From the IMG/VR virus record IMGVR_UViG_3300047453_000452, positions 1 through 41,932 of that record: a DNA stretch of 41,932 nucleotides. One strand, given 5' to 3'. A program made the position numbers and the translations under genes. The DNA is from a virus. The notes beneath the pieces are model-generated. The model worked only from the letters and a program-made list of their open reading frames with translations, was not told the origin of the DNA and ran no database searches. Within the stretch, counting starts at the first letter, position 1, and the number at the start of each line of letters is the position of its first letter. Shown piece by piece: positions 1 through 36,482 of this stretch.

Positions 1-141
1 GCTGTAATTAATTTGCCTGTTGTAAACGGTGCACAATCTACAGTTAAATATACAGGACAATGGGAAGTTATATTGTATAACAACAGAGAAGCGCAACGAC
101 AAAGCCTCAGCAATGTGCTTAGGCCTAAGGCAGATTTATAA
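1..141 (+). CDS. C-terminal end of a probable neck protein (gp14-like), partial
   Basis: Frame 1 is open from the left edge for 46 codons and ends at TAA 139-141, whose last base is the A of the next gene's ATG. The fragment ends NVLRPKADL and includes the phrase QWEVILYNNREAQRQ. In T4 and its marine relatives the gene before gp15 is the neck protein gp14, and the one-base overlap fits a co-translated neck/tail-completion pair. The identity rests mainly on gene order, because the fragment is too short to recognise alone. The 5' end lies outside the window. Confidence 0.55.
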   Translation, partial: AVINLPVVNGAQSTVKYTGQWEVILYNNREAQRQSLSNVLRPKADL

Positions 142-1571
142 TGCAACATTTTTATGATGGACAAATAAGACGTTACCTTACTCAAATGATTAGAATGATG
201 AGCGGGTTTTCTTACCAAGACGGCAAAGGACAATTAACAACAGTTCCTATAACGTACGGTGATATTACTAGGCAAGTTGGAAGTATTTTAAGAGACAATT
301 CTGAAAATAAAATTCCTAGTGCGCCAAGAATGGGAATTTATGTTACTGGTTTAGAAATGGACAGAAGTCGTACAAGCGACTCTAGTTATGTTAGTAAAGC
401 ACATATTAGAGAAAGAGCATATGACGAAGAAAATAACGAGTACCTAAATACAGATGGTAAAAACTATACTGTTGAACGATTAATGCCTACTCCGTATACG
501 TTATCAGTAAATGTTGATATTTGGACTACAAATACAGAACAAAAGTTACAAATTATGGAACAAGTTCTAATGTTGTTTAATCCAAGTTTAGAAATACAAA
601 CTACTGATAATTATCTTGACTGGACCAGTTTAAGTGTTGTTAATTTAGATACCATTTCTTGGAGTTCAAGAAGTATTCCTACAGGAACTGATTCAGAGAT
701 TGATGTAGGTTCATTAACTTTTACAACACCAATTTATATTAGTCCACCTACTAAAGTTAAACGTTTAGGTATTGTTACTGATGTTATTAGTAGAGTATTC
801 CAAGGTGGTGAAATTGACGACCTTGATGATGCAGCTAATATTAGTACAAAGATTTATGTTGACGAAAACGGTGATCTGCAAAGAGGAAAAACAGAAGCAT
901 ATTGGGAAACTACACAAACTAGACTAAGTGTTGGCCCAACTAACTACAAAAATACAAGCCTATTAGTTCTTAATAATTCAATTAAATTAATTGACAAGGG
1001 AAATGTTGGCGGCAAATCTTGGCCCGAATTTTTATTAGCATTCCCTCAAAAGTTTGTAGATGGAATTACACAAGTAAGGCTCACTAGAGCAGATATGGCT
1101 TTTGATGTTATTGGTTCGCTTGCAATTAATCCACTAGACGAAACAGAAGCTACAGTTTCCTGGGATGAAGATACTATCCCAACAGATTCACTAATAACAA
1201 GTGAAGTAGGTGCTAGAAATAAAATTGATTATATTATAGATCCTACAAAATCAAATCCACAATCATTAGGACTATCAGGCAATCCTAGAATATTATTATT
1301 AGGCGATATTGGAGATGCCAAAAACAACGACGGCTCTGATGCTTGGAAAAATTCTGACAATACAGACTTTATAGCAAATGCTAATGATATAGTTGAATGG
1401 GATGGATCTAAATGGACTATTATATTTGATGCAGACGTTGACCTTAGTGTATACGGTACATTATACACAACAAATTTAAACACCGGAGTGCAATACAAGT
1501 TTGATGGTAATGACTGGTTACTTTCGTTCGAAGGCGAATATCCAAACGGCACTTGGAGTTTAAACTTCTAA
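141..1571 (+). CDS. 15: Tail sheath stabilizer and completion protein, T4 gp15-like
   Basis: The first 210 or so residues match the pattern of T4 gp15. An N-terminal HFYDGQIRRYLTQM corresponds to the FYNSSFRRYATLM region of gp15. A VPITYGD block and a PTPYTLSVNVDIWT segment follow, then EQVLMLFNPSLEI (gp15 has EQILPYFQPHF), and an ISPPTKVK stretch near residue 205. In T4, gp15 caps the top of the contracted-tail sheath and joins the tail to the neck. At 476 aa this protein is much longer than T4 gp15 (about 270 aa). The extra C-terminal half (residues ~230-476) is Asp/Asn-rich, predicted beta, and has no motif I recognise. The start is fixed by the TAATG overlap with the preceding gene. Confidence 0.85.
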   Translation: MQHFYDGQIRRYLTQMIRMMSGFSYQDGKGQLTTVPITYGDITRQVGSILRDNSENKIPSAPRMGIYVTGLEMDRSRTSDSSYVSKAHIRERAYDEENNEYLNTDGKNYTVERLMPTPYTLSVNVDIWTTNTEQKLQIMEQVLMLFNPSLEIQTTDNYLDWTSLSVVNLDTISWSSRSIPTGTDSEIDVGSLTFTTPIYISPPTKVKRLGIVTDVISRVFQGGEIDDLDDAANISTKIYVDENGDLQRGKTEAYWETTQTRLSVGPTNYKNTSLLVLNNSIKLIDKGNVGGKSWPEFLLAFPQKFVDGITQVRLTRADMAFDVIGSLAINPLDETEATVSWDEDTIPTDSLITSEVGARNKIDYIIDPTKSNPQSLGLSGNPRILLLGDIGDAKNNDGSDAWKNSDNTDFIANANDIVEWDGSKWTIIFDADVDLSVYGTLYTTNLNTGVQYKFDGNDWLLSFEGEYPNGTWSLNF

Positions 1572-4936: not shown

Positions 4937-5626
4937 ATGTCGTATAATATGTGGGGCAACGCACCTAAAAAGACACAACAAGCAAAGCCAAATATGGGAT
5001 GGAGTAATCAGCCAAAGCCTGAAGACATTCCATATTATGATCCAGTACATAACATTGCTCCTAAGGTAGTTGTAGGACTAGATAGAGATGGTGTTATTAA
5101 TGTTGATGCAATCGACCTATCTAAAGATTATGTTTATAAAGTTGAAGATTTTAAACCTATCCCAGGTAGTTTAAAAGCTATTGCTAAGATAAGAAGATTA
5201 GGTCACAAGATTGCAATTATTACAAATCAAGGTGGTATTGGTAAGGGAATTTATACAGCAGACGATGTTGAAAAAGTACACGACCATATGTTTAATTTAT
5301 TAGGCGAAGCAGGTTGTTCTAGTATTGACGCATTATATTATAGTGAAACAAGTTTACGTGCAGACGGGTTTGCTAAACCTAATACAGGTATGTTCAAACG
5401 CTGTGAAGAAGAAATGCCATTTATTAAATTTTCAAAAGGGTTTTTTGTTGGTGATAAAATATCAGATTTAAAAGCTGCATTTAAGGTAGGAGCAAAGCCT
5501 GTATTAGTTCTTACCGGCCACGGTCAAGAAACATTAAAAGAACTTAACAAATTTAGCAATCAAAAAATTAAAAAGAAAACTATTATATTTGACAATCTTG
5601 CTCAGTTTGCAGATTCATTAGGTTGA
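4937..5626 (+). CDS. gmhB: D,D-heptose 1,7-bisphosphate 7-phosphatase-like HAD phosphatase (GmhB-like)
   Basis: A HAD-family histidinol-phosphatase/GmhB-type enzyme. Motif I is LDRDGVIN (nucleophile D49, acid D51), motif II is ITNQGGIGKG (T96), the lysine motif is AKPNTGM (K147), and motif III is VGDKISD (D173, D177). DRDGVIN with TNQGGI is the GmhB signature. The expected reaction removes the 7-phosphate from D-glycero-D-manno-heptose 1,7-bisphosphate, between the two HldE steps. Unlike E. coli GmhB, the segment before the lysine motif (YYSETSLRADGF) has no Cys/His zinc loop. About 40 Pro/Gly/Gln-rich residues precede the domain; their function is unknown. TAGGA lies just upstream of the ATG. 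The gene ends 25 bases inside the convergent oxygenase gene. Confidence 0.85.
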   Translation: MSYNMWGNAPKKTQQAKPNMGWSNQPKPEDIPYYDPVHNIAPKVVVGLDRDGVINVDAIDLSKDYVYKVEDFKPIPGSLKAIAKIRRLGHKIAIITNQGGIGKGIYTADDVEKVHDHMFNLLGEAGCSSIDALYYSETSLRADGFAKPNTGMFKRCEEEMPFIKFSKGFFVGDKISDLKAAFKVGAKPVLVLTGHGQETLKELNKFSNQKIKKKTIIFDNLAQFADSLG

Positions 5627-6237
5627 TCTTCAATAACTTTAAAATTAGCACTAATTGAAGCTCTAACATTATCAGTTTTATTCCAAGTAACATAATGATC
5701 TAACGTACTTGGAAAAAATACAATATCTCCATCTTCTAAAAACGGATTGTGTCTTTGTGTCCAACGTTCTGGCTCTTCAAATAAATGCATATGATTAGCA
5801 CTAAACATTTCACAACTACTATCATAAAAAATAAACTGCCCATTTTCACTAGGATCTTCATTATTTGGTAGGTCTAACATATATGCACAACTAACAATAT
5901 TGCCGTCGCCGCCGTGTGCGTGTACCTCTTGATGCTGTCCTTTGTGATATCTATTCGCCCACGCATATGAATGTAATTGATTCTGATATTCTTCCTTTAA
6001 TCCAATCTCGTAAAGATAAGGTCTCAATGCTTCTTGAATATTACCAAAAAATAAATTCCAAGGAAGTTTTTCGTTAAGGTCTGGATGATGAATAGTTGTA
6101 TCGCAATTACAATCCCATTTTACTGATTTACCAAATGAGTTTGGATCATTTAAATGTGGTAGAAATTCTTTTTTAATTTCTTCGTGGTTGGGCATCTTAG
6201 TTTTAAAAATAAGATTACCAAGAATCATTTCAAACAT
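5602..6237 (-). CDS. Second 2OG-Fe(II) oxygenase-like protein
   Basis: A 211-aa protein of the same general class as the oxygenase at 4361 but not a close copy. It has HQEVHAHGGDGNIVSCAYML with iron ligands H106 and H108, then EDGDIVFFPSTLDHYV with H181, and R192 in RASISANFK as the likely 2-oxoglutarate contact. The predicted fold is the double-stranded beta-helix dioxygenase. It overlaps the carbamoyltransferase stop by 8 bases (ATGTTTGA), so it is the third gene of the glycosyltransferase-carbamoyltransferase operon. Its 3' end is convergent with, and overlaps, the gmhB-like gene. The substrate is unknown. Confidence 0.75.
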   Translation of the reverse strand: MFEMILGNLIFKTKMPNHEEIKKEFLPHLNDPNSFGKSVKWDCNCDTTIHHPDLNEKLPWNLFFGNIQEALRPYLYEIGLKEEYQNQLHSYAWANRYHKGQHQEVHAHGGDGNIVSCAYMLDLPNNEDPSENGQFIFYDSSCEMFSANHMHLFEEPERWTQRHNPFLEDGDIVFFPSTLDHYVTWNKTDNVRASISANFKVIEDQPNESAN

Positions 6238-8032
6238 TTTTTACCTTTACTAATTTTCCTAATTCTGGCAAGTAACAGTATTCAATTTTACTAGACGCTA
6301 AGGTATGAAATGCATCTTGAAGTGTTTCAACTAAAGGATCACCACCTAAGTTAAAACTAGTATTGAATACAATTGGACAGCCTGTTTTATCTTTAAACGC
6401 TTTGATTAAATCGTAATAGTTTGGATTTTGATCTCTATTTACAGTTTGAATTCGACAAGTGCCGTCTACGTGAATAATAGCTGGAATCTTTTCTTCGACG
6501 CCAGGCTGACAGTTTACAGCATACATCATTGTTGGTGAGCTTTCCATACCACGCAAATCAAACCATTCGTGTACATCTTCTTCTAATATACTACCTGCAA
6601 ATGGTCTAAAGTATTCTCGATGTTTTACACTATTAATAAAGTCTTTACCATTTGGGTCTGTTGGATCATATAGAATACTTCTATTACCTAACGCTCTTGG
6701 TCCGTTTTCAGATCTTCCTTGAAATACTGTAACAATATTTCTATTTGTAATTAATTCAACAATGTCTTCATTAGTTGCATCAGATACTTCACCATCAAAC
6801 ATTTTAGCTGCATTATCAACATCTTCGTTTGTAATATTCCAGTCTGGGCCTAGGTATACATCAGTAGCTTGAGGATCGATTTTCATATCTTTAGTAAGAC
6901 TTCTGTATGCCCACATAGCTGCACCCATTGCTGTGCCGCCATCGTTTGACACTGGTTCAACATATAGATTAATACCTTCATCTTCTAATTCTTTAAGGAA
7001 ATAATAGTTAGCAACACAGTTTAATCCATATCCTCCACTAACAACAACATTTTTACACCCACTAATTTGTACAGCATATCTAATAACATCTGCGGCAGCT
7101 TTTTGTGTTTGCGTTTGAATAGCATACGCCATATCTCTTCTATTTTGTAATAATGTTGCATCAGCGTCTTCTGAGGCAGGACGCTCTCTTAAATGTGAAT
7201 AGAGTGATTCGTTAACAATAGAACCATTTGGATATCTAGGTATAAAAAGGTTTCTATTACTTAATGGTGTAGGCCAGTTTGCGTATTCATCAAAGAATGG
7301 CGGTAAAGTTTCGTTAGGGCCGCCATATGGAAATAGTCCCATAGTTTTACCTGCTTCAATTGCATTCCAACCGCAGTACTCTGTTACTGCTTCGTAGCAC
7401 TTTGTAATACCTGCACGATCTGATAAAGACGCTTCGTATGATCCTGTTTTGTTACCAAAAATATCATAGTCAGGTGCTTCATTTGCAACTGTTGGTAAAA
7501 AGTCTTTACAACCTAATGTTTTATATAACGTTTCAATATTATCTGGATAACTGCATTTGTAAATAGATTCAGTTTCCCACATATATCTACTATCACCATC
7601 AGCTTCAAGAGGGTAACAAGTACCAGCTCCGTCAATAATTACTGCTGTTGCTTCCTCAAATCCTGATCTATAAAATGCTAAACTGGCGTGCATCTTATGG
7701 TGTAGTTTAGCTACATCAATAACTTGAGGATGGTGGTCCCACGGATGATTACTTTCAATTAACCCCATTTTTCTAGCAAGGCCAGTATAAACATCTTCAT
7801 TAGTATAATCAACTCTACCAGCAGTTTCATCAAGTGTTTGAGTATGAGAGATAACCATATAATCTAGCCTATCTGTATACTCTAAAATTTTCAATATCGA
7901 TGCTAATGGTCCGCCGTCATACTTACTACGTGTTAGTCTTTCTTCTTCAATAGAAAAAATAATTTCTCCATCTTTCATTAAGCAAACGCCTGCATTATGG
8001 CCTCTAGCAAGGCCAGCAATCCATAAACTCAT
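6230..8032 (-). CDS. O-carbamoyltransferase, NodU/CmcH/TobZ family
   Basis: A full-length, two-domain 600-aa enzyme. The N-terminal Kae1-like domain starts GLARGHNAGVCLMKDG with EEERLTR (29-35), the metal/active-site histidines KLHHKMHAS (H111, H112, H115) and IIDG (133-136). The C-terminal domain carries GRSENGPRALGNRSIL (GPRALGN at 444-450), VKHREYFRPFAGSIL and FNTSFNLGGDP. Family members activate carbamoyl phosphate to carbamoyl-adenylate and transfer the carbamoyl group to a hydroxyl, usually on a sugar or natural product. Carbamoylated L,D-heptose is known from Pseudomonas LPS core, which makes heptose a plausible acceptor here; that is inference. The ATG shares one base with the stop of the upstream GT9 gene and has a strong GGAGG inside it. 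Confidence 0.92.
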   Translation of the reverse strand: MSLWIAGLARGHNAGVCLMKDGEIIFSIEEERLTRSKYDGGPLASILKILEYTDRLDYMVISHTQTLDETAGRVDYTNEDVYTGLARKMGLIESNHPWDHHPQVIDVAKLHHKMHASLAFYRSGFEEATAVIIDGAGTCYPLEADGDSRYMWETESIYKCSYPDNIETLYKTLGCKDFLPTVANEAPDYDIFGNKTGSYEASLSDRAGITKCYEAVTEYCGWNAIEAGKTMGLFPYGGPNETLPPFFDEYANWPTPLSNRNLFIPRYPNGSIVNESLYSHLRERPASEDADATLLQNRRDMAYAIQTQTQKAAADVIRYAVQISGCKNVVVSGGYGLNCVANYYFLKELEDEGINLYVEPVSNDGGTAMGAAMWAYRSLTKDMKIDPQATDVYLGPDWNITNEDVDNAAKMFDGEVSDATNEDIVELITNRNIVTVFQGRSENGPRALGNRSILYDPTDPNGKDFINSVKHREYFRPFAGSILEEDVHEWFDLRGMESSPTMMYAVNCQPGVEEKIPAIIHVDGTCRIQTVNRDQNPNYYDLIKAFKDKTGCPIVFNTSFNLGGDPLVETLQDAFHTLASSKIEYCYLPELGKLVKVKNV

Positions 8033-9081
8033 TATCTATTTCCTCCGTGATGAAATCCGTCACCTGGTCGATGTACAACTCCGTGTGTTGGACAAACTTC
8101 GCCTTGTGGCTGTTGCATTTGTTCTGAAGGTTGTCTTGGAGCACTTTTTTTAGATTTTCCCATTTTGCCTTTAATAGATTTAACAATATCATTAACGTGT
8201 GTATCGCTCATATTCATTGCTTTATCGTTAACTCTATCTGGTTCTTCTTCCATACTAGCTCTAATAGGACTGTAAACTCTTCTGCCTTCGCCAATGTCAA
8301 ATATTGTTACATCTTTATCATTTAGGTAAGATGTATTAATTGGAAATGTACTTCCAGTTACAACAGTAGCAGGTGTTCCTAATGCTTTAGCAACGTGCTG
8401 ACCTACACTATCACAACCTAAAAAGTGATCAGCTTCTTTAATTACTGCTGACCAAATACGAAGATCTGGAATCTGTGGCTGTGCTAATGGAACTTCATTT
8501 TCATTTTCTTCATATAAGTTTAGCTGATGCTCTGACATTATAATAATGCCATATTCTTGTTTTAATTGATTTGCCATTCCAAGCATATCTTCAACTCTAA
8601 AACTTCTTGATGTTGAGTCAATTAAACTTTCTTCAACACCTCTACCAAAAGGTTGAATAACTAAAATTTTGTCAAACCCGGTAACAGCTCTTACTTCGTC
8701 AACTACCCCTTTACCTTGAATTAGTTCTGATTTGTTAAGGTCAATTGTAGGTGCTGGTAAATCTCTAATACCTTTTTTGTTAATTTCAATATCAAATGCT
8801 TGAGCAATACTACATTGTTGATTGTAGTATTCCCAGATTCGATATGGTTCAGGACTTACACAATCTCTATCTTTAATAAATTGTTCAAATAATCCTTTGT
8901 GCCAAGTATCATAAGCACGTTTATGTAGGGTCGGATGTCCTTTATAAAAGTCCATACCCCCTTCGCAAACAATGATAAAATCATCATCTGGATTCTCTTT
9001 TTCGTAAAGCTCAAATGCAGGAATACTAGTAACTACTCTACCAGCTCCTCCATTGATAAAAAATGCTGTTGATCTTTTCAT
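8032..9081 (-). CDS. Glycosyltransferase family 9 (heptosyltransferase)-like protein
   Basis: A 349-aa GT-B-type protein resembling ADP-heptose:LPS heptosyltransferases. The N-terminus has the acceptor-side loop GGAGRVVTSIPAFELY. The C-terminal half has IIIMSEHQ, then ADHFLGCDSVGQHVAKALGTPATVVTGS, which matches the GT9 donor-site pattern (D-S-x-xxH-xA-ALG-P-V-x-LFG). The family transfers heptose from ADP-heptose, the product of the hldE/gmhB/hldD genes nearby. Residues ~305-349 form a Lys/Gln/Pro linker and a Cys/His tail (CPTHGVVHRPGDGFHHGGNR) not usual for GT9. It is the first gene after its own late promoter; AGGGAC precedes the ATG. The acceptor is unknown: host lipid A core, a polysaccharide, or a phage fibre protein. 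Confidence 0.75.
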   Translation of the reverse strand: MKRSTAFFINGGAGRVVTSIPAFELYEKENPDDDFIIVCEGGMDFYKGHPTLHKRAYDTWHKGLFEQFIKDRDCVSPEPYRIWEYYNQQCSIAQAFDIEINKKGIRDLPAPTIDLNKSELIQGKGVVDEVRAVTGFDKILVIQPFGRGVEESLIDSTSRSFRVEDMLGMANQLKQEYGIIIMSEHQLNLYEENENEVPLAQPQIPDLRIWSAVIKEADHFLGCDSVGQHVAKALGTPATVVTGSTFPINTSYLNDKDVTIFDIGEGRRVYSPIRASMEEEPDRVNDKAMNMSDTHVNDIVKSIKGKMGKSKKSAPRQPSEQMQQPQGEVCPTHGVVHRPGDGFHHGGNR

Positions 9082-9198: not shown

Positions 9199-10017
9199 TT
9201 ACTCTCCAGTAAGATCTGGATCTTCATTTGGATTGTAATCATCATAATTAGTAATGTCAAACTCAATTATTGTAGTTTTTGGATACATAGAATCAATAAA
9301 GATTTGAGGAATATCAGTACCTTCAAATGCCTGTGGCATATCTCTTAACAATTGTCTGTACGTTGCTAACTCTTGAGTTTTCTCACCTTCAGCATCCATA
9401 GCTAGATATGTAGCATACAATGAGTCAGTATTTCTTAACAATACGTCTCTTTCCGCTTTAATTGTATGCCAGCTTTGAGCTTTACCTATCCAACATTCGT
9501 TAGTTTGTTTGTGCAAAATAACTTTTTCATTTTCAAAGTCCCAGCGACATTTTAAATCATCATATAGTTCGTCTGGGTGAATTGGATAAGGATATTCAAA
9601 GTTTTCATATCCTTCTGGTGACTCAATCACTTTTTGACCTACTTCGTGTTCCCAGTCATCATCATCCATAAAGTTATTATGATAATCGGATAATACTTCA
9701 GCAGCTAACGGATCTGATGCACAATCAAATTTAATTAATGTTGTTTCTGAGTCTGCTTCAATTGATTCATCTGGTAGTTCGTGTTCTCTAAATACAGATT
9801 CAAATGTTCCGTCTTCATTATTTGCAAAAAAGTAAATTGTTTTTGGACCAATATAGATAGTATTAATTGTATCTGTACTATCCCAACCATCTAAATAATT
9901 GTTATTTGGACATTCGTAACTATACTCTTTTTTAATCCATTCGGTTTCAAATTCGTCACTCATATTGATATCATCTATGTTGACACCAAAATTTGTTTTC
10001 ATATCTATTATCGCCAT
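9199..10017 (-). CDS. Probable tail-fibre assembly chaperone / tail assembly protein
   Basis: A very acidic 272-aa protein. Residues ~183-232 (WHTIKAERDVLLRNTDSL, then ATYRQLLRDMPQAF) fit the pattern of the phage tail assembly chaperone family (Phage_tail_APC type: R-x-ERD-xLL-x-TD, then YRQ-x-LRD-x-P). The N-terminal 180 residues, rich in Asp, Glu and aromatic residues, are not recognised. The gene is the last of the fibre operon, right after a probable tip adhesin, which is where T4-like phages keep their fibre chaperone. It may help fold or attach the upstream fibre, or be a minor structural protein. Confidence 0.6.
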   Translation of the reverse strand: MAIIDMKTNFGVNIDDINMSDEFETEWIKKEYSYECPNNNYLDGWDSTDTINTIYIGPKTIYFFANNEDGTFESVFREHELPDESIEADSETTLIKFDCASDPLAAEVLSDYHNNFMDDDDWEHEVGQKVIESPEGYENFEYPYPIHPDELYDDLKCRWDFENEKVILHKQTNECWIGKAQSWHTIKAERDVLLRNTDSLYATYLAMDAEGEKTQELATYRQLLRDMPQAFEGTDIPQIFIDSMYPKTTIIEFDITNYDDYNPNEDPDLTGE

Positions 10018-10021
10018 TCTA

Positions 10022-10885
10022 TTAACTCCAAGTTATTCTAATTAGACCCGGCATACCCGGAGTACCACGACAGAAACAAATAAAGTTACCGCACCACGAT
10101 TTCATATTACTCATTCCACCCATAGCAATCAATCTAAATCCTCTACAACAACTTGCACAACCGCAATATGTTCTACTAGGTCCCATATAGTATGTATGTT
10201 CGTTATTGAGTCCATAGGATGGAGCAGTTTTCTGCCATCTATCCCAACACTGGCAACCACTGTCTGATTTATAAAATTGTGGCTCGCCACCTGTATCAGC
10301 AAAGTCCCATTTACAACCAATACAAATACCTAAGTTACAGAATCCTTCTGTTCGGTTAGCGCCACTCATACACTTACAAGTACAGTATCTTACATATGCA
10401 CCTAGTCCGCCTGGTATACAAGTACAGCATAATCCTGAACCAATAAACCAACTACTACACCCTCTCGGTCCTTGACAACAAGCAGTAAAGCAACCGCAGC
10501 CGTTATTTGATGTTCCGTTACCACCTGAGCCTACACAGAATCTGTAACAGCACCCTGGAATAAATTGTCCGTCGGTTCGTCTAATAGTTTTTCTACCAAA
10601 ATATCCTCCAAACGATCCACAACTTGCCATATCACATCTACAACTATAGCAGCAGTGTCCTGATCCTGAGCCACCTCCGCTCCATACTTCAAATGTAATT
10701 TTTGATGCACAAGTACAAGCAAACCAGCAACCACATCTACCACAGTGTGCTCTACACCTGTGTGTACCATTACATACTAAGCAAGTATTGTAACACTGGA
10801 AAAACCCTCCAGGTACTTGGCCTTGTGATCTTTGACACGTACCGTCCGGAAACCTAATCCCATCGCTATATAAACAAGTAGCCAT
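10022..10885 (-). CDS. Cysteine- and glycine-rich protein, probable tail-fibre tip adhesin
   Basis: A 287-aa protein with 42 cysteines (about 15%), many as CC, CxC or CxxC, plus abundant Gly and no long helix-forming stretch. The start LYSDGIRFPDGTCQ resembles the FxDGTxQ openings of phage fibre modules. The body follows the pattern of glycine-rich tail-tip adhesins: WSGGGSGSG, VGSGGNGTSNNG, SSWFIGSG, PGGLGAYVRY, and a final GMPGLIRITWS, with Cys occupying many positions between the Gly runs. It abuts the stop of the S74 fibre gene, has an AAAGGGAGA ribosome site and its own late promoter 20 bases upstream. Adhesin function is inferred from this order (fibre, adhesin, chaperone) and composition. 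Whether the Cys form disulfides or bind metal cannot be read from the sequence. Confidence 0.6.
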   Translation of the reverse strand: MATCLYSDGIRFPDGTCQRSQGQVPGGFFQCYNTCLVCNGTHRCRAHCGRCGCWFACTCASKITFEVWSGGGSGSGHCCYSCRCDMASCGSFGGYFGRKTIRRTDGQFIPGCCYRFCVGSGGNGTSNNGCGCFTACCQGPRGCSSWFIGSGLCCTCIPGGLGAYVRYCTCKCMSGANRTEGFCNLGICIGCKWDFADTGGEPQFYKSDSGCQCWDRWQKTAPSYGLNNEHTYYMGPSRTYCGCASCCRGFRLIAMGGMSNMKSWCGNFICFCRGTPGMPGLIRITWS

Positions 10886-13111
10886 TTATGCGTCTCCCTT
10901 TAATGTATTTATTTCTTCTTTTAATTCTTTAATTGCTTCTACTAATAAAGGTACAACTCTTTCGTATTGCAATGTTATGTAGTCCTCACCTGATATTGAT
11001 TTACCATCGTTTTCCGGATCTCTATCAAACGGTGCAGGGTGAATGATTTCTGGAAGTACTGCTTGCACTTCTTGAGCAATCAATCCTACTTCTGCTTTTT
11101 CTTTATCAAAGTCATCTGGTGTATTTTCGTTCCAATTATATGTTACACCATTAAGTGACATAACTTTGTCTAGTGCATTTGGAATGTTTTCAATGTTAGT
11201 TTTAAGTCTAGCATCTGAAGTATTTGAAATAACGTTACCTGAAGCTCTGTGAATACCGTTTGTTTGACAACCATCATTTTGCGTTTCAATCTTATTAGAA
11301 TCGTTATAACGCAGTTGAGTTTGGCCATTAAGTGTATGATAAACGAACCAGTGATTGTTTACATCGTCGTATAAGCCGGCAGCATTGCTGTTATCGTGCA
11401 TAAACACAACTCGTCCGCCAATTGAATACCCTTCCCAGCCACCGTGGTCGCCGCCGTCAATTTCAATCGAACCGTAGTTACCACTTACTGGACGGAAGTA
11501 TCCGTTATCTGTGTCGCCTAAACGTACACCTGTGCCATTAACTGTTACTTCACGACTTCCTCCAACATACATACTAATTGTATCGCCTTCAAAGTCAAGA
11601 TACGTGTTACTATCACCTGCGTGACGCAAGTATCTTGGAATAGTTAGATCGCCAGTTGTTTCAAGACTTGTAAATTTACCAGTGCTTGATGTTGATGCAC
11701 CAATTGACATATTGTTAATTGATCCGCCACCTGCTGGTGACATTGTAACAGTACCTGTTCCACTTGGTGAAAATGTTAAGTTAGCGTTTGCTGGACTAAA
11801 TCCTACTGTACTTGTTGCACTTAGTGTTGTAAATTCTCCAGAAGCTCTTGATACGTTACCAATTGAACCTACAAAGCCGCCGCCGGAGTAAATGCGTTTA
11901 GCAATACTTGCACCACCTTCACAACGTAGTGTACCAGTGTCACCCGAGTTGTTTGAAGCGTCTGTAGTTCCTGTAAAGTCTACAGTTGAGTTTGCAGTTA
12001 GTGTAGTAAATGCACCTGTGTTAGCAGTTGAACTACCAATTGGAGTATTATTAATACTGCCTGCAAATAATGCGCCACTTACACCAATGCCGCCTGTTAC
12101 AACTAGCGTACCTGTTGTAGTGTTAGTTGATGCTGTGTTTGCTGTAAATGTTGTTGCACCGTTTGAAGTTAATGATGTAAATGCACCAGTACTAGCTGTT
12201 GAACTACCAACTGCTGTACCTTGTAAACTTCCACCGTATATTGCTCCGCTTACACCTAACCCACCTGTTACAACTAGCGTACCTGATGTAGTACTACTTG
12301 ATGCTGTGTTTGCTGAAAATGTAACTGCTCCTGTTGCACCTAAGCTAGTAAAGTTAGCTTGTGCTGGATTAGTTGCACCAATTCTAACATTAGACATACT
12401 ACCTTGTGTATCTGAACTAATTGTTAGTGTGCCGCCTGCTCCAATAGTAGTATCGCCACCTGGATCAATTGTTACTGAACTAGTTGAACCAGTTGGCGCC
12501 ATATTAATAATCTGTCCAGCTGCTGTAAAATCTAAGTTACCTGGAAATTCTGTTGGTTTTCCAGCTTCGCCTAATATAATTGATCCTGATGCAGATGCTA
12601 ATGTTAAATTTCCTGTAGGTCGGAGTGTTGCTTGTGCCCCAGGCTGAATGGAGACAGAACTCTGTGGACTAATGTCAACTGTTCCTGAACCTGTTGGTTT
12701 AATTTCTACATTATTATCTAATGGATTAAGTTCTACTTTTGCATCAGCATTTAGTACATCATTAAATGTAACTGGTAGTTCAAATACTGTAGTACCTGCT
12801 AACGCACTTGTTAATACATAATTTGCACCATCTGATGTTAATTGATATGTTGAGTTTGTTGGAATATCTACTGATGTTCCAAGTGTTACACCGTTACCTG
12901 TGATTTGACCAGCTGACGTAGTCAACGTAATCATTCCATCAGTAGCGTTGTAAAATGTTTGTCGACTTCCTGGAAAAAATACTGGGCTTACCATTGTAAC
13001 TTCGTACCCTGTTGTCCCTATTAGGGAAATAATTCCTCCAGTAAACGCATAAGTGAATGTTGTTTCCTCTTCCACTACCAGTGTTTGCGGTGCTGTATTA
13101 TAACGTGCCAT
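10886..13111 (-). CDS. Tail fibre with C-terminal S74 self-cleaving intramolecular chaperone
   Basis: A 741-aa protein dominated by Ser/Thr/Gly/Asn beta repeats. Two clear ~60-residue copies contain TSGTLVVTGGLGVSGAIYGG and TTGTLVVTGGIGVSGALFAG, each followed by an SSTAxTGAFTxLT segment. The last ~110 residues are the S74 chaperone domain: SDARLKTNIENI with the Ser632/Lys637 cleavage pair, VTYNWNE, VGLIAQEVQAVLPEII, YERVVPLLVEAIKEL and a terminal coiled coil. In this family the domain trimerises the fibre and then cuts itself off before the serine. The mature fibre would be about 631 residues. GGGGAA precedes the ATG. It sits between a small virion protein and the Cys-rich adhesin candidate. 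Confidence 0.88.
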   Translation of the reverse strand: MARYNTAPQTLVVEEETTFTYAFTGGIISLIGTTGYEVTMVSPVFFPGSRQTFYNATDGMITLTTSAGQITGNGVTLGTSVDIPTNSTYQLTSDGANYVLTSALAGTTVFELPVTFNDVLNADAKVELNPLDNNVEIKPTGSGTVDISPQSSVSIQPGAQATLRPTGNLTLASASGSIILGEAGKPTEFPGNLDFTAAGQIINMAPTGSTSSVTIDPGGDTTIGAGGTLTISSDTQGSMSNVRIGATNPAQANFTSLGATGAVTFSANTASSSTTSGTLVVTGGLGVSGAIYGGSLQGTAVGSSTASTGAFTSLTSNGATTFTANTASTNTTTGTLVVTGGIGVSGALFAGSINNTPIGSSTANTGAFTTLTANSTVDFTGTTDASNNSGDTGTLRCEGGASIAKRIYSGGGFVGSIGNVSRASGEFTTLSATSTVGFSPANANLTFSPSGTGTVTMSPAGGGSINNMSIGASTSSTGKFTSLETTGDLTIPRYLRHAGDSNTYLDFEGDTISMYVGGSREVTVNGTGVRLGDTDNGYFRPVSGNYGSIEIDGGDHGGWEGYSIGGRVVFMHDNSNAAGLYDDVNNHWFVYHTLNGQTQLRYNDSNKIETQNDGCQTNGIHRASGNVISNTSDARLKTNIENIPNALDKVMSLNGVTYNWNENTPDDFDKEKAEVGLIAQEVQAVLPEIIHPAPFDRDPENDGKSISGEDYITLQYERVVPLLVEAIKELKEEINTLKGDA
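10906..10913 (-). promoter_or_regulatory. T4-type late promoter AATAAATA before the Cys-rich gene
   Basis: AATAAATA followed by CATTAAAGGGAG on the minus strand, inside the last codons of the 741-aa fibre gene and 20 bases before the next ATG. The extension ATAAATACATTAA is shared with the element at 25600-25607. Confidence 0.6.
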
Positions 13112-13130: not shown

Positions 13131-13451
13131 TTAAGTTGTCGATGTTTCGATGCCGTATACTGTAATACCAACGTCATTAGAGTTTACATTTGCTACTATA
13201 TTTAGCCCGCCTTGCATAACTAAACCTGTGCGTTCAAACACACCGTTTGGAATAATAACTGTATTCCATTCGATCCATTCTTCCGCTGTTGGCGTTGCTG
13301 CCGTTGCCATTGCCAACTTCATTGAAATTGACGTTGCATTTCTATTTGTAATTGATACATTTGCTACAGCATAAGTTCCTACTGGTACTGTGTACACAGT
13401 AGTATCTGTACTTGCTGTTAGGTCCTGTACGCCTAATCTTCCTGTTGCCAT
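13131..13451 (-). CDS. Small virion-associated protein, function unknown
   Basis: A 106-aa all-beta-looking protein starting MATGRLGVQDLTASTDTTVY. It resembles in layout the 109-aa protein at 36149: an N-terminal ligand-like strand, an N-x-N central strand, a VIIPNG turn (VVPPNT in the other), a GG-L strand, and a C-terminal strand with final acidic residues. Proteins of this size between fibre genes in marine T4-like phages are usually annotated as virion structural proteins. GGAGATAA serves as the ribosome site. No enzyme motif is visible. Confidence 0.65.
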   Translation of the reverse strand: MATGRLGVQDLTASTDTTVYTVPVGTYAVANVSITNRNATSISMKLAMATAATPTAEEWIEWNTVIIPNGVFERTGLVMQGGLNIVANVNSNDVGITVYGIETSTT

Positions 13452-13470: not shown

Positions 13471-16400
13471 TTATCTGCTTAAGAAGTATCCAAGTGCTAC
13501 TGGAGCTCCATCAACACCACCAGTAAAGTTCATCTTCGCTTTAATATTTAGCTGACCTCCACTAGTTGTTGTGATTTCATCGTTTGCAATGAATATTACC
13601 CCTGCTGTTAGTGTGTTAACGTTCAGGCTACTTTGTCCACCACCAATCTGTGCAGTGATGTACGATTTGATTGCTCTTTGTGTTGGAACAATATTGTCAC
13701 TGTTTTCTGTAAAGAACGGATCTGTACTAAACTGTGTAATAACTGCTGAGCCAATACCAACCGCAATACCACCAAGTTGCAATGACTGCAATCCTGCTAA
13801 GTTAAATGCGTCAGCATCCAATGTCGCAGTACCTGTGGACTGCTGAACACCAAACAAGCCACCAACGTTAAAGTTACCATCTTGGTCAGTACTTGTAAAG
13901 AATACTCGTCCGCCGCCGCTACTTAATTGCTGTGCTTCGATATATGCTGATGTAATATCAACGAACGGATAGTTTGTTTTAGCTTGGTTACCAGTACCAA
14001 TATACAAGAAGTCGTGTCCTGTTAGACGCACTTGCGAGTATTTGTTAGTTGTAGTAATCTTTGTTCCGTCTTTCGGTGCATTCAACACTGTTAATGACGG
14101 ACTAACTTGGAAGGTTGCTGTATAGCTTCCTGGTTGTCCAATAACATTACTAATTGTAACCAATTTATAATAATTGTCCGGAATACTAGCAAACTCAACG
14201 TTTGATCCTGGTTCTGGCAATTCAAACAATCCTCTTACAGCAATAAACGTTGCTGGTTGATATAAGTCTGCGCTACCATCGCCTGATAATTCAGCTGTTG
14301 CTGTTGTATATCCTGTACCTCTGTTAGTAAAGGTTGGACTTGCTAATGCACCACTTCTAATTCTAGGATTAACTGCTGCATCAATTGTTGCGTTATTATC
14401 ACCAATTGTTACTCTCGGTCCTGCTTCAAATATTGTTGGTTCTAGATCTGCTGCTACTACTGTAGTAATGTCAAAACTTGCACCGCCACTAATTAAACTA
14501 ATTTCAATGTCAGTACCGTTAATTGCACTTATGTAATATAACTGCTCACTGTCAATACCTGTAGCACTTTCTACATTAGATGCAACACCTGATCCTCCGT
14601 AGCCTCCGCTGCTGGTTGTTGTTGTCTGCGTGTTTATTGTAATTGGTTGCCCAACATACAAGTTTGCTGCAGAGTTAACTTCAATAGTGTTTGGTGCTGT
14701 TGTACTTACAACAGTTCCTGTTGGATAACCTGATCCAGGTTCAGCTAAACTAATTGTTATTATACGTCCATCTTCGTCAGTTGTTCTACCCAACGCTCTT
14801 GCACCAGTATTAATATAGAAGCCTGTTCCTCGAGCTGCTGTAGCTCCTGGACCGTTTGTTACTACCCAGGTTGGAACACTATTTGGATTACCAAATCCTA
14901 CGCCATACCATTTTGTACCTGAAGCTGATGAGCTATCTCTTATATACCACTCTAGACCATATTGACTTGTAGCAACATATTCTTCACCAGTAATTACAAA
15001 TAGTCCTTGACCGTATGCAACTTCGTTCCAATCACTAGTTCCAATGTTTTTCAATCCTGCTGGTGATGCTGCCCAAGTTACGCCTTTATCAACACTAACT
15101 GCTACTTCGCCGGATTCAGCAAGTGCAACATATCTACTGTTACCATATGCTATTGCTTTCCAGTTACCAGTTGCTGGCGGTAATGCACCTCCAGCTACCC
15201 AAGTAATACCGTTTGTACTGTATGCTGATTCGTCTTGTTGTGATATTGCAACAAAAGTGTTACCACCGTGTGCAACTGCAACAAAAGTATCTGTTCCACC
15301 TGTTAATGTAGTAATAGTTCTTCCAACCCAACTTATACCGTCTGTTGAAGTACCTGCGCCTGATGTGCCATCTCCGCCAACTACAACATATGTTCCATTG
15401 CCATAAGCAATATCTTGGTATGCTGATCCTGGTAACGGTGATCCGCCTGTCCAGTCAGCTGTTGATAATGAACTACTTTCTAAGTATGCATTGTTAGCTG
15501 AACCTTTAGAAATTGCAACAAATTTTGCTGCTGGATCAGTAATTGTTACTGTTGGTGCGCTAGTATACCCTTCACCACGCAACGGTTGATCATCACCATC
15601 TAGTGAAATATTAACAGTTTTTAATCCGCCATTATCAATAGTTGATGTTGCTGTTGCTTGTGTAGATGCACCGCCTCCACTAATAGTAATAGTTGGTGCT
15701 GTTAAATAACCTCTACCAAATGATGTTACAATAATCTCAGTAACTTTATCTGTTTCAGCTGTTACTGTTGGTGCTTGTGCATAACCTGCACCAGTACTTG
15801 TAATAATAATTTCTTTAATTGCACCATCTTGTACAGTAGCTACAGCACTTGCGCCGCCTCCGCCTGCTGTTGGAGTTAACACAATAGTTGGAGCAGTTAC
15901 ATAACCACGTCCGCCATCAACTACTGTAATCTTTTTAATCTGTGTTGGTCCAGGTAAGCCAATGCTGTTTAGTTCACCTAATTCTGCTGTAAGTACTGCA
16001 CCAGTTCCGCCTAGTCCGCCAACAATTGCTGTTGCTCTAGCATTTTGTCCGCCGCCAAATACAGCTTTTGTCCAAGCACCAGATGCTGGTAATATACCAC
16101 CAACAGCCCAAGTTTTACCATCATTTGAATAGTGAGCTTGTGTGCCGTCTCCTGGTAATGACATAAACACGCCACCACTAGTAATATCAGCAAACTGAAC
16201 TGCACCGTGATCATAAGTTGTTCCAGTTTCTGGAACATTTACAGTATCTTTTGTAAAGCCCGGCTCGTCAAAAGTAATTCTTGGTTCAACTCTATAACCT
16301 GTAGTAAGATCTAAGTTAGCTTCAACTGCTGTACCTTCAATTACGTGATTCCAACCAGCTGCATACATTGCAACAGTTTGACTTGTTGTTGTAGTTAGTG

Positions 16401-19400
16401 TGATTGCACTTCCACCTTCTGAAGTACTTAATTCAAATTCTGAACCACTAGCATTTTTGTTAATTACATAGTACAATGTGTTTTCAGTAATTCCGCCCAC
16501 TGTAGATGCTGCATAAATTGGCATATTATCATATACCTGTTCTATTTCTCCACTTAGTGTTACTTTGTTACCCGTAGCATTAGTTGCTGTAATTGTGTAT
16601 GGTCCGCTGTTTGGTTTATACACTTGAGCTTTTTTAGTACCATTGTTAAATGTTAATATTGTACCGTATTGTCCAACACCTGTTCCTGCTGTTAGTTGTA
16701 AATTCATATCTACGTATGCACCACCAAGTGCGTTATCAGTTGCTGCTAGTGTAGCTTCAACTTCATTACCGCCCTGTGCAACGTTCTGTGCTGAAACATA
16801 ATCTTCACCACCTGTACCGTTACCATCATCTAGATCGATTAAACGAGCTTCAACAACTGCTTGATCTCTAAACTCATCTTGAACAACTGCTGCATTAAAT
16901 CCTGCACCACTAATTGCAACGCCTGCATTTGTATATCCTGTACCAGCATTAGCATATTCAAAGCGTAACACTTCTTCTTCGCCGTCTGTTGGAACGTTAA
17001 AAATAATTGCATCTTGTGACAAGTTATCAGTTGCTGCGGTAATTGGAATTTCACCAGTGTCAGTACCTTCAGCAATAACACCATATGTACCATATGAACT
17101 GTTACCGTTAGTAGCACGTATTCTTCCACCTAAGTCTGCTAAGTAACCTGAATAGTTATAGTAAGCAAACACAGACACAAGTTCTGTTAATGAGTTGTTA
17201 CCCGAACACCATACACCAATACCATCACTTAGTACTTGTGTAAAGTCGTTACTAACAATCGATCTGTTACCGCCTGCGTGTAGAGCTCCATCAATTTTAC
17301 AACCAACACAACCAACACCAAATGTTGTTACGTTTTGTACATAACAAGATTTGTTAGTTACCCACGCTTCAGTGTCCCAAGGTCCAAATCCAGGATCAAG
17401 TGATACGTAAGAACCTGCTGTTGGACGTCTTGTACCAAAATCGTTTAGTTCAGTTAAGTTGCCGCGTAAACCGTTTACAGTCATATTTCTTACACCTGTT
17501 GCGTTTCTTACGTGGAACATATCTGAACGCTCTGATCCATTTACTGCGTTTAAGTATTTTTGTGCTTCTTTCCAAACTTTATGGTTTCCAGGATATTGTA
17601 AATCATATGCAATAGCATTTACATATTCAGTTACGTCATCACGCAATTTAGCTTGATCAAATGCATATGCAACAACACTTGAACCAGTGCCGCCTGTAAA
17701 TGTAACACTTTCGCCGCCTTTTGTATCTGAAACTTCAATTGTTGTAGTTGACCCTACTGTTGAAACCCAATACGTTGTATTTGCTGCAACACCGCCAATT
17801 GCAGTAGCAAATTTAATTGGATCGCCTACTGATAAATTGTGAGCTGCACTAAATGTAATTGTGCCAGGTGATCCAGCAACTTCAGTTGCTGTTCCGCCGT
17901 AGTTAGCATTGATCCAAGCTACTGATTCCTCAGCTAAGAATTCTCTGTTAACTTTTAGCACATCAACAGCATTAATCATTTCTCTACTGTTATAGTACGT
18001 TGTTGTTCCGTGAATCTCAGGAGTTTTGCCGCTACCTGTATCTAACATTTTGATAACAATATCCATTAAATTGTTAGTACGTTTTAGTGCTAAACTATTA
18101 GCATTAATATATGTGCCAATTTTGTTTTTCAATTCTCTGTATGCTTGTACTGTTGCATTATTTTGTGGGCCTAATACTGCATCTGCTGCTGTACCTCTAA
18201 AATATGATTGTGCTGCAAATGTAGTTAGATAGTTTGTATTAGACATCATATCACGTCCAACTGCATCAACAAGCAAGCCAACATCTCTTTCGCACTTAGC
18301 ACTATCGTATGTTAATGTTGGATAGTTAGTTGCAATATATGTTGTGATTGCTGTTTTAATTGCAGCAACAGAACCTGTTAAGTTTGTAAACTGTTGTTTT
18401 AGTGCTGCTGGAACTGTTGACAAATCTGCGTTTCTTACTGGATATGTAGGATAACTTTCACTAGTTGCATCAGCAAAGTCAGCTTCAGGACCGTTAAAGT
18501 ACTCTGAAAGTGTAACTGTAGTTGGTGTTGGAGTTGTTTTAACATAGAACACTATACCATCATTTAATCCTGCAAATGTTACTGTATCACCTATTTTGAA
18601 ATTGTGTACAGTTGACAAAGTCAATACATTCGACGCAATGTCTGTAGTAGCAAGTTCTTCGCTACCACTTGTTAGACCATCAAGGATGTTATAAAAACTT
18701 GTTAGTAGGTTTTCAGTTCTTGCTACTGTGCCTGCATTACCAACAATTTGTAAAGAATCTCTTAATACTGGAGTTTCAATATCTTGTATAGCACCAGGAC
18801 TTGTAACTGAGTTTACTACCAGTCCATTAACCAGTTGTTTTAAATAATCAAATGCTTCAAGGTATGCTGCTTTTTGATTCTCTGTTAGTGTAAGTTCATC
18901 TGGTTGTCTGTTTATATAGTACTGATATGCAACTTCATTTACACTCGAAGTACTACCATAAGTTAAGTCATAACGTAGTGCATCAACAACGTTACTAACA
19001 TCTCTATTAAAATCAACGCTGTTGTATACTAATGTAGGATAGTTTACGTTAACATATTCTGTTAGTTCTGCTTGTAACCATTTTTTATTTTCCCAAATTA
19101 ACGCTGCGCCAGCTACGTCATTTGCATCTGCATTACTTGGTGCACACCATTTTGATACTGGTGTTGTGCCGCCGTTAATATATCCTTTAAGATCATCTAC
19201 AAGCAATTCAATTGACGCACTTGCATTTGTACAAGCTACTCTTCTTACTTTTTCAGCTAAGAATCCAATTGAGTTAACTGTTGCAATTAATTCGTTATTA
19301 ACTACTTCTAGTGCTGAAGCTGTTGGTCTATAATACTGCATACCTGCTTTAACTGTTGCATAATTAGAGCCTGTAGCAATATCTCTTGCAATTGCATCAA

Positions 19401-22400
19401 CCATTAATCCTGCATCTCTTCTGCAAGTGTCTTGGTTGTAAATTAGTTCTTGATGATATTTTTCTACCCAGTACACAACATCTTCAACAATTTCGCTTTT
19501 GCGTACAACTAGTTCATTGTATGCGTCTCTACGCTCGTTAGTAATATAATCAGTTGCGACTTCGATAGTAGCATTAGGTGCTGAATTGTTAAGCCAATCA
19601 AGCACATCATCTAAACGATCCTGTGCAAATTCAACTGCATTTGTGTTAGCTGCTGTTCCGCTTGTGTCTTGTGTTTCAGTAACATTTGGACTTGTTGTAA
19701 CTGTAGTTTCAGTAATTACTTGATCAATTACTGTTTTAAGTCTTCCATATGCTCCAATAGTCATATTACTTTCATCTAGTGTAATGTTTGAAACAAAATC
19801 TGTAAAGTATGAACTACCTACAATCAATGATTGTGTGTTACCGCCATAAATCATATCATAGCGAACTGCATCTATACTGTATCCAATATCTGTAATAAAT
19901 CTAGCTTGATCGTCTGCTGTAAGAGCTGCCCAAGTTGCGTCAAAACCATTACCTGAATCTTGAACCCAATTTTCAATTTCATCTAACATAAAGTCTTTGT
20001 TTGCAACAATTTGAGCAACAGCGTTGTTAAATGTAGTTGTGACGCCATCGGCGTTTGCTGTTACAGCAAAAGCAGTGTTAGCATATCCACTTGTTCCCCA
20101 CTCGTTAATAGTAGGAAACTCAATACCTGGAGTTGCAGCAAGTCCGTTTTGTGCAATAGTCTGCATACCAATAGTAATATCATATGCTCTATTAGAAGTG
20201 TCTCTAGTACCTTCTTCAGCTAACTGACTCATTGTTAGTTCTAATAACTGTTCTTCAATAAATTCAACTGTTTGTATTGTTGCATTTAACTGATTATTAA
20301 GAACAAGTTCAGTTGAAGTAATGCCTCTACGATATGCTGCTCCTGCTTGTGCGCTTCTAAAGTTGCTGTTAAAAATAACGTCATAAGCAATAGCATCAAC
20401 AATATATCCAACATCTCTAGCACACTTTACTCTATTGTATGTTAAATTAGGATATACTTGATCAATATATGCAATTGCACTATCTTTAATGTTTTCAACT
20501 CTTAGATCAATTGATGTTTTTAAATCTACAAGTGCAGTATCTACCCAACTAGTTGCCGGAGTAATTAATGCTGGATCTAATCCACTATCAATAGTTTCTT
20601 TGATTTCATTAATTCTGTCTACAGCAAATAATCCAGCACCTGCTGAACCTGCGGTTCCAGTAACGTCTTGTGTGTTTACATTACTTGATGATTTTGTCCA
20701 TCCTGCTGTATTACCTTCAACAATATTATCAATAACATCTGCTAGTCGAGTGTGCAATGCAAGGAATGCTGTTTTCTCATCTGCTGGTTTTTGGAATACT
20801 TCATCAACATAATATTTTCTTGCAATTACGATTGTTTCTAAGTTACCACGGTATGTTAAGTCATATTGCAGAGCATCAACAGTTTGGCCAATTTCAGCTT
20901 TCCATTGTGTCTTTTCGTCTGCGGTTAACGCTGTCCATACTGCATTATAATTATCAATCATATATGCTTCGCCTTCGTCAATTATAAATTGCTTGTTAGC
21001 AACTAATAATCTTCTTGCGTTAAAGAATCCTGTATCATATCCAACTGGATCAGTAATTGTGTAAGATGCTGGAGCAATATCATTAGCTAAAATATTAATA
21101 ATATCTGTTGCACGATCTCTTACTTTTTGCTGTCCTGAAGTAATTTCTTTAATTTCTTCTCTTACAACATCAAGCGATACTACTGAAGCTTCAAGTTGAT
21201 TATCTAAAACATATTCAGTCGAAGTAATACCTCTGCGGTATGACATTCCTGATTTTAATGAATTAAATGTAGTGCCAAACATCATATCAAGTAATAAACC
21301 GTCAACAATAAATCCAATGTCTCTTGAACACTTAGCGTGATCATATTCAAACTCACTATAGTTGTTAGTTACATATTGTAATGTTGCTGGAACAACAGTT
21401 GTGTCAGCAATAATGTCATCTGCATCACTTGCAATTGCTGCTGCTGCCCAAGAATAGTCTGGATATGTTTTTGTTGGCAGTGCAATGATTGTACCTGCTT
21501 CAATAGCTTTTGCAACAATAAGAATTAAAGTATTTGCTTCTGCTTTTTCAGTTGCGTTTGTCATTGTGCTTTGTACAATAGTAGAAAGTTGCTCAAATGC
21601 TGCTGCTGAAATATCTCTTTGTGCTACTGGTAATGTTTCTGCATAGCCTTCAAAGTATGCTTTTGCTGCTTCATATGTTGCACTATTTCCGCCATATTGA
21701 ATATCGTAACTTACTGCATCAATAACACGACCTGCATCTCTTTCGCAAATTTCTGTACTGTATGTATAAGTTGGATATGTAGTATCAATCCAAGTAGTTA
21801 GTGCAGCAATACTAGCTGCTCTGTTAGTTTGTAGTTGTTCACGTGCAGTTGTTTTTGCTGCAACACCTGGGTTTGACCAAGTAATTACGTCTGCATTATC
21901 TGTACCGTTTTCAACAATATCAAGGACTTCGTCCCAGTATGCAGTATTTCTTGTAGTTGCTGTTGAGTCACTTACTAATGCTAATACTAATGCTTTTTCT
22001 GCTGCAATTGTGCCAAGTGTTTGTGGTAACTGATTTACAATAACATTAAGACCCATTTGACGTCTATATGCAAGACCATCGCGTATAGAGTTATAGTTTG
22101 TGCCTAATGCAGTATCATATGCTGAACTTGTTTTTAAAATAGTTGAGTCTCTTCTACAAGATCCACTATCATATTCAAATTCACCAAAGTTTGAGTTGAC
22201 AAAATCAATAACTGAATTTTGGATGTCTGCTTTTTTTGCAGCAATTTCAGTATTGTATGTTGTTAACTCAGTTGATACCCAAGTAGTATCTGATGCAATT
22301 GCTGATGCTAATGTGCCGTCAGTATCAATAGTGTCATAAATTTCTTGTACACGAGCTTCTGCAAATGTTTCTGCGCCTGCACTACCTGCAGTACCGTCAA

Positions 22401-33689: not shown

Positions 33690-33699
33690 TTCTTATTCC

Positions 33700-35730: not shown

Positions 35731-35757
35731 TTAATTCTTTCCTCAAATCATTTTATA

Positions 35758-35765
35758 TATTTATG
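35758..35765 (-). promoter_or_regulatory. T4-type late promoter CATAAATA before the 676-aa gene
   Basis: CATAAATATATAA on the minus strand overlaps the stop codon of the 125-aa gene (35761-35763) and lies 27 bases before the start codon at 35730. Confidence 0.6.
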
Positions 35766-36138
35766 ACACTATCTGACTTGCGTCATAAGTATATGCTTGA
35801 TTAATTCTAACTACTAATTCGCCTTCGCTGTTTACATAATAAAACATATTTTTGTTGTCCCAGCGATATTGATCCCATTGTAAATTATCATATGGACGAC
35901 TATGATCTAATTCAATACGTCCATCAAAAAAGTCAACTCCGTATTCAAACTCTGTAAAGTCATCTGATGATGCTCCAGGATTGTTTACAGTGATAGTATC
36001 GTTATCTTTTAGCTGGTCAATTTTAGCAAAGAACAGTGTACCGTCTTCTGTTCTACGCAGAGCATAAAAATATCTTGGTTGCCCTACTCCTAAAAGTTCT
36101 GTTATACTTGGTGTACCACCTACATAAAATGATGACAT
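35761..36138 (-). CDS. Small virion-associated protein, function unknown
   Basis: 125 aa starting MSSFYVGGTPSITELLGVGQ. It is rich in aromatic and acidic residues, with RYFYALRRTEDGTLFFAKID, a YGVDFFDGRIELDHSRPYDN segment and YYVNSEGELVVRIN. There are no membrane segments, signal peptide or catalytic motif. It lies between two fibre genes on one operon, with a strong AAGGAGATAT ribosome site, which supports a structural or assembly role in the tail. I do not recognise a named family. Confidence 0.65.
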   Translation of the reverse strand: MSSFYVGGTPSITELLGVGQPRYFYALRRTEDGTLFFAKIDQLKDNDTITVNNPGASSDDFTEFEYGVDFFDGRIELDHSRPYDNLQWDQYRWDNKNMFYYVNSEGELVVRINQAYTYDASQIVS

Positions 36139-36148
36139 CTATATCTCC

Positions 36149-36478: not shown

Positions 36479-36482
36479 ATCT

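Follow-up and report, generated by a model that had tools for sequence, protein, structure and literature searches.

The Fibre Locus

The window, by which we mean the whole stretch of DNA analyzed here (41,932 nucleotides), carries on its minus strand, at positions 10022–10885, an open reading frame (ORF) that starts with ATG and encodes 287 amino acids, among them 42 cysteines (14.6%) and 49 glycines. The initial annotation had given the same count, 42 cysteines in 287 residues, and had called the product an adhesin candidate; we describe it below as a probable tail-fibre-tip adhesin on the basis of its gene order, its predicted fold, and a phrog_4205 match.

Immediately downstream lies a tail-fibre assembly chaperone gene (9199–10017, minus strand), identified by its match to the Pfam family Phage_tail_APC (PF16778). 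On the other side, at 10886–13111 (minus strand), profile matches identify a tail fibre with a C-terminal Peptidase_S74 intramolecular chaperone, which may be the carrier of the adhesin, and beyond it a small fibre-locus protein of 106 amino acids (13131–13451, minus strand; phrog_11338, E 8e-8) that resembles PSSM2_302, CAM1_228, and CAM3_160 when the sequences are compared by eye. Two further minus-strand genes serve as syntenic markers of the locus: a phrog_8954 glycosyltransferase-9-like protein (8032–9081; E 2e-134, with weak Pfam support) and a Nol-like carbamoyltransferase (6230–8032; Pfam).

The fibre region also holds, upstream of the adhesin, two giant minus-strand ORFs at 13471–25575 (4034 aa) and 25608–33689 (2693 aa). 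Genes resembling 2OG-Fe(II) oxygenases or prolyl hydroxylases occur near fibre-tip genes both in the window (5602–6237, minus strand) and in S-SM1 (33496–36678), S-SSM7 (105389–105856), and Sf-FS3 (97904–98536).

Is It a Real Gene?

The other minus-strand proteins of the window, 12 in number, contain 57 cysteines in 11,412 residues. Because they average only 0.5%, the 42 cysteines lie far beyond chance; the binomial probability of at least 42 in 287 residues is ∼3e-47 to 1e-46. Reading frame and length are preserved in relatives at 64–89% identity. When the window protein is aligned with six of these, 37 of the 42 cysteines are identical across all seven sequences, and both TGT and TGC are used in 23 of these 37 invariant columns. 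Of the residues compared in this clade, cysteine shows the highest conservation (88% invariant, vs. 80% for glycine), and pairwise dN/dS is ∼0.06–0.22, values that are rough, dS being saturated. Judged from these comparisons, the ORF is a real protein gene under purifying selection. An artefactual or chance ORF was also considered, and is ruled out by the cysteine statistics, by dN/dS below 1, and by the conserved cysteine columns.

A Widespread Cysteine-Rich Family

By hmmscan, residues 34–287 of the window protein match positions 32–285 of phrog_4205 (E 7.1e-12), a family annotated as of unknown function. Direct tblastn searches of cultured phages with the window protein and with its counterpart from locus L011 gave no match, even at E 10, and the family was therefore reached through a neighboring gene together with phrog_4205. 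That gene pointed to Synechococcus phage Sf-FS3, three tandem genes of which match phrog_4205; further members are found in S-SSM7, S-SSM6a, P-SSM2, P-SSM5, S-CAM1, S-CAM3, and single-cell marine viruses. The cultured members in P-SSM2, S-SSM7, S-CAM1, S-CAM3, and Sf-FS3 carry the annotation “hypothetical.”

When viral contigs were scanned with a profile, 255 places were confirmed, and 80 loci were kept from these. The homologue search that the initial annotation had proposed thus yielded, from all loci, at least 231 unique members with 5.4–14.6% cysteine (median 10%), a range to be read with the knowledge that the search was seeded with cysteine-rich sequences and cannot demonstrate an absence of cysteine-free relatives. 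The window protein has the joint highest cysteine fraction of the 231. Where both flanks of a locus are present, there are three tandem copies in 34 loci, two in 21, and a single copy in 11; in 92 of 108 loci, the gene directly after a family gene is fibre-assembly-like.

Several searches were empty within their scope: PDB sequence searches returned nothing relevant, one scan of cellular genomes with the window-clade alignment found no member, S-CREM2 (a phage with a virion proteome) has none, and we found no literature on the cysteine-rich family. The window sequence reaches no Pfam family and does not match Gly_rich_2 (PF21722) at E≤1. Its relatives come closer, with an Sf-FS3 copy at 27.1 bits (cut-off 24.3), the L012 protein exactly at the cut-off with 24.3 bits, and places in S-SSM7, S-CAM1, and S-CAM3 above it. 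In profile comparison, the window clade alone does not match the cysteine-poor forms of this domain, whereas the wide family does so partially (E 3.8e-6, 87%).

Predicted Fold

AlphaFold was run on monomers; the initial annotation had suggested structure prediction as both trimer and monomer. The model of the window protein (88 aligned sequences) has a pLDDT of 71 and a pTM of 0.75, and that of a 262-aa relative (70 sequences) a pLDDT of 82 and a pTM of 0.78, with low confidence for the N-terminal 30 residues. The two models are not fully independent, because their alignments have most sequences in common. The best PDB match of both is the Pam3 tail fibre 7ypx (Foldseek E 5.5e-6 for the window protein and 4.9e-7 for the relative; probability 1.00 and TM 0.47–0.55 for both). 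Matches in a viral structure library include members from P-SSM2 and S-CAM3, many glycine-rich-domain proteins, and Syn9 gp38.

Pam3 gp24 combines a TNF-like with a glycine-rich domain; in the latter, six loops pack into a lattice, and the distal tip is variable. The fibre protein is folded by the chaperone gp25, and gp24, not gp25, is detected in virions (PMC9608196). In the window protein, TNF-like strands and cysteine-rich loops equivalent to the gp24 head region are predicted from approximately residue 50 to 287 (10025–10738, minus strand). A first distal loop, residues 70–94 (10604–10678, minus strand), has five cysteines between model strands 62–68 and 96–102 and probably stands where Pam3 has glycine loop L1. 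A second, residues 119–144 (10454–10531, minus strand), also has five, between model strands 113–118 and 145–149, and may likewise have a Pam3 counterpart.

Because gene order, the adjoining tail-fibre-assembly gene, and the predicted fold all point the same way, the window protein is very probably the tip with which a tail fibre binds its receptor, and the adhesin or tail-tip assignment of the initial annotation is to that extent borne out. We would predict that it represents a conserved, widespread, and uncharacterized cysteine-rich version of a known class of fibre-tip adhesins.

Cysteine in the Place of Glycine

The earlier description of a glycine-rich framework calls for a correction, since 17% glycine is low for an adhesin of this kind; the glycine-rich domain of Pam3 has 39% (PMC9608196). 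Cysteine-poor Gly_rich_2 proteins are encoded in the fibre regions of Syn9, S-SM1, S-SSM5, Syn33, and Pam3, and their distal part has 0–3% cysteine and 28–41% glycine, whereas in the cysteine-rich family the medians for this part are 11% and 19%. Because cysteine-poor proteins have the same domain, cysteine is dispensable for the fold, and because the cysteine-rich form has the narrower distribution, we infer that it is the derived one.

In a 70-row alignment, there are 8–24 cysteines per 100 residues in the distal loops, compared with 0–0.6 in core strands 61–67, 93–99, and 256–262; cysteine is nearly missing from the N-terminal 33 residues and plentiful in the segment preceding the first core strand. 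The window-protein model by itself shows no significant cysteine bias between strand and non-strand residues, and the loop pattern therefore relies on the family alignment and the better model of the relative. On the best reading of these models, the cysteines would sit mostly in the loops that form the glycine lattice in Pam3, where much of the glycine would have been exchanged for cysteine clusters.

Whether the cysteine positions are conserved, as the initial annotation asked, depends on the cysteine. Among 88 sequences of 18–89% identity to the window protein, ∼17 of the window's cysteine columns are cysteine in 79–100% of the sequences with a residue there, although a few of these columns are present in only a minority of the sequences; others (e.g., 4, 17, 53, and 57) are nearly restricted to the window clade. 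In a set of 225 sequences, cysteine makes up half or more of 25 columns. A core of ∼15–25 columns is thus retained in relatives at ∼20–30% identity, and the remaining cysteines are lineage specific.

What Might the Cysteines Do?

The reading we prefer, to which we give an even chance, is an adhesin in which cysteine has taken over part of the glycine lattice and becomes disulfide cross-linked after release. The protein would be a receptor-binding fibre tip that has the TNF-like and glycine-rich fold of Pam3 gp24 and is folded with the help of the adjoining chaperone. In ordinary members of the fold, the distal loops stack as a glycine lattice through main-chain hydrogen bonds; across the cysteine-rich family, much of the lattice glycine in the same loops would have given way to cysteine clusters. 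These would stay reduced during cytoplasmic assembly and, on exposure to oxygen at lysis, cross-link mainly neighboring loops and possibly subunits. The result would be a stiff and stable tip in which the residues between the cysteines vary to match receptors. What the analysis shows directly is the gene with its conservation and order among its neighbors, the fold as predicted, and the location of the cysteines in models and alignments; that the protein is part of the virion, forms trimers, and binds a receptor, and whether its cysteines are oxidized, we infer.

Cross-linking after release is favored because the protein belongs outside the cell, disulfide-bonded fibres are known from Pam3 and Milano, and there is no clear metal motif. 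The same two phages qualify the earlier statement that so much cysteine is rare in virion proteins, which is broadly right, yet disulfide-linked fibres have been published for both. Erv1/Alr sulfhydryl oxidase genes were sought in 18 cyanophage or related records and none passed the cut-off, which would fit oxidation once the virion is released.

The initial annotation had offered a disulfide-locked tip or metal binding, and the pattern of cysteine gain and loss gives neither a clear signature. Even cysteine counts are not preferred (122 of 231 members are even); core cysteines are not lost in pairs (co-loss 59, vs. 56 ± 4 expected under a randomization keeping losses per branch and per column), most branches that lose any losing only one; and no pair of cysteine columns changes together significantly after correction for 990 pairs. 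Were every cysteine to have a fixed partner in its own chain, one would look for even counts and for losses in pairs. Uncertainty in the tree and the alignment limits the power of these tests. A paired-disulfide signature in co-change was rejected on the results for co-loss and for the 990 pairs. Three loop segments of the 70-row alignment most often have exactly three cysteines, which would suit cross-links between rather than within loops. Parity, paired loss, replacement, and the three-cysteine segments, taken as a whole, make it unlikely that the disulfides form a fixed intrachain, intraloop set, and bonds between loops or chains would be compatible with the absent parity and pairing signal.

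At least two glutaredoxin matches occur in four of five genomes with the cysteine-rich adhesin (S-SSM7, S-CAM1, S-CAM3, Sf-FS3, and P-SSM2) and in one of nine others, genome size being a confounder.

Metal binding by the same adhesin, with cysteine clusters as Zn, Fe, or Cu thiolate sites that organize the loops, is an unlikely but serious alternative. It has a precedent in the T4 fibre needle, in which histidines bind iron (PMC6957217). The three-cysteine segments would fit it, as would the common loss of single cysteines without a partner, which suits redundant ligands, and histidine accounts for 9% of core cysteine replacements, compared with 2–4% for most other residues (tyrosine, 9%). However, this increase is mild, and half of the cysteine-to-histidine events sit in one weakly conserved column; CxxC spacing is not enriched (6 seen vs. 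5.9 expected), and the protein matches no metal-binding Pfam family. CxC spacing occurs 10 times, against 6.0 ± 2.1 expected. As to the suggested link with iron uptake, we find nothing in its support beyond chemical possibility.

We consider it more doubtful still that the cysteines of the same adhesin are free thiols used for packing or reversible receptor contact. The lack of both a parity and a pairing signal would agree with this, as would the many kinds of residue that replace core cysteines, but the degree to which cysteine outconserves glycine in the window clade, and the survival of the core to ∼20–30% identity, exceed what simple packing would lead one to expect. Free thiols are, moreover, prone to oxidize in surface seawater. 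Very improbable is a small non-virion protein of the infection period (e.g., a redox or metal buffer) that lies in the fibre locus by chance: we found no proteomic detection of the family, the proteomics of PMC3037559 covering S-SM1, S-PM2, and Syn9, all without the cysteine-rich form, but the predicted fold, the chaperone neighbor, the position of the gene, flanked in most loci by a fibre and an assembly gene, and the cysteine-poor proteins that share the domain and are encoded in fibre regions all speak against it.

The Phage

The phrog_8954 gene and a baseplate wedge gene of the fibre locus have their best matches in cyanomyoviruses. Elsewhere the signal differs: jumbo phages, Atu_ph07 and Phosso among them, provide the nearest matches to a tail-sheath-stabilizer-like protein (window 141–1571). 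The related contig L008 encodes a major capsid protein (95% identical to that of L012) with 65–76% identity to its counterparts in the jumbo phages Vibrio 2.275.O, Phosso, GAP32, and Atu_ph07, but its identity to the capsid proteins of cyanomyoviruses, where they align, is only ∼35–38%. A search for psbA in the larger related contigs, which are incomplete, found none, and a cyanobacterial host therefore cannot be assumed. By these comparisons, the source, a marine phage, looks like a jumbo T4 relative and not a standard cyanophage.

The cysteine-rich form is absent from four cultured jumbo relatives, in which only cysteine-poor glycine-rich stretches occur, in Phosso. There, a very long protein of this Sinorhizobium phage (PV764938.1, 48338–57826) has two stretches, both poor in cysteine, with matches to the adhesin profile.

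The adhesin module appears to be common to cyanomyoviruses and jumbo T4 relatives, and an exchange between a fibre locus of the cyanomyovirus type and a jumbo T4-related phage is probable. Only tentatively would we go on to propose a redox-set adhesin, in which a widespread marine phage family has swapped a glycine lattice for a cysteine network that is reduced before lysis and, once outside, locks or else takes up metal, side-chain cross-links taking over from backbone hydrogen bonds in holding the receptor-binding loops, as a module moved between these two groups of phages.

The range of cells that a phage can infect depends in part on its fibre-tip adhesins. At least 231 unique sequences, including those of the much-studied P-SSM2, keep ∼10% cysteine (up to 15%) in a fold that elsewhere does without this residue. 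The role of these residues, once found, would show a second way of building receptor-binding loops that vary, and cultured phages would then allow direct tests of what is claimed on marine phages and metals, or on oxidation after lysis.

Comparison with Known Systems

Pam3 gp24 (PDB 7YPX), the best structural match of both models, offers the closest comparison, with its TNF-like and glycine-rich distal domains and a fibre-assembly gene, gp25, directly after the fibre gene, as in the window. It differs in having a single cysteine, residue 28, near the N-terminus and outside the glycine loops, whereas the window protein is 15% cysteine; the window model, in turn, lacks the long N-terminal helix. 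Disulfide-attached fibres have been published for Pam3.

The phrog_4205 proteins of cultured phages (PSSM2_304/306, SSSM7_114-116, and those of S-CAM1, S-CAM3, and Sf-FS3) are homologous by profile, with 8–12% cysteine and a comparable gene order. The window clade differs from them in its 37–42 cysteines, many of them lineage specific, in being single copy where seen, and in sharing only ∼20–30% identity with them. Syn9 gp38, Syn33_047, S-SM1_049, and S-SSM5_040 belong to the same domain family and lie in the fibre regions of T4-like cyanophages, but have 0–1% cysteine and 22–34% glycine over the whole protein. In Syn9, gp39 (L112:31149–32327) looks like a glycine-rich domain that has been duplicated and in which some stretches, midway and at the end, are out of frame.

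The T-even tip adhesin gp38 of Salmonella phage S16 is likewise encoded by a small gene after a long fibre gene and has a glycine-rich receptor-binding domain; it is a structural relative of Pam3 gp24 according to PMC9608196, on which this comparison draws, S16 gp38 being absent among the Foldseek matches listed. The extracellular TG domain of ALK and LTK is a distant fold match (E ∼1e-4 to 1e-2), but these are animal receptor kinases with a TM-score of ∼0.3, and we make no claim of common family. Finally, the Agrobacterium phage Milano has, as is proposed for the phage here, a tail with functional cysteines, with a disulfide network that includes fibres bonded to the baseplate (PMC10811340); its cysteines, at ∼2%, are spread through the structural proteins and not focused in a fibre-tip domain.
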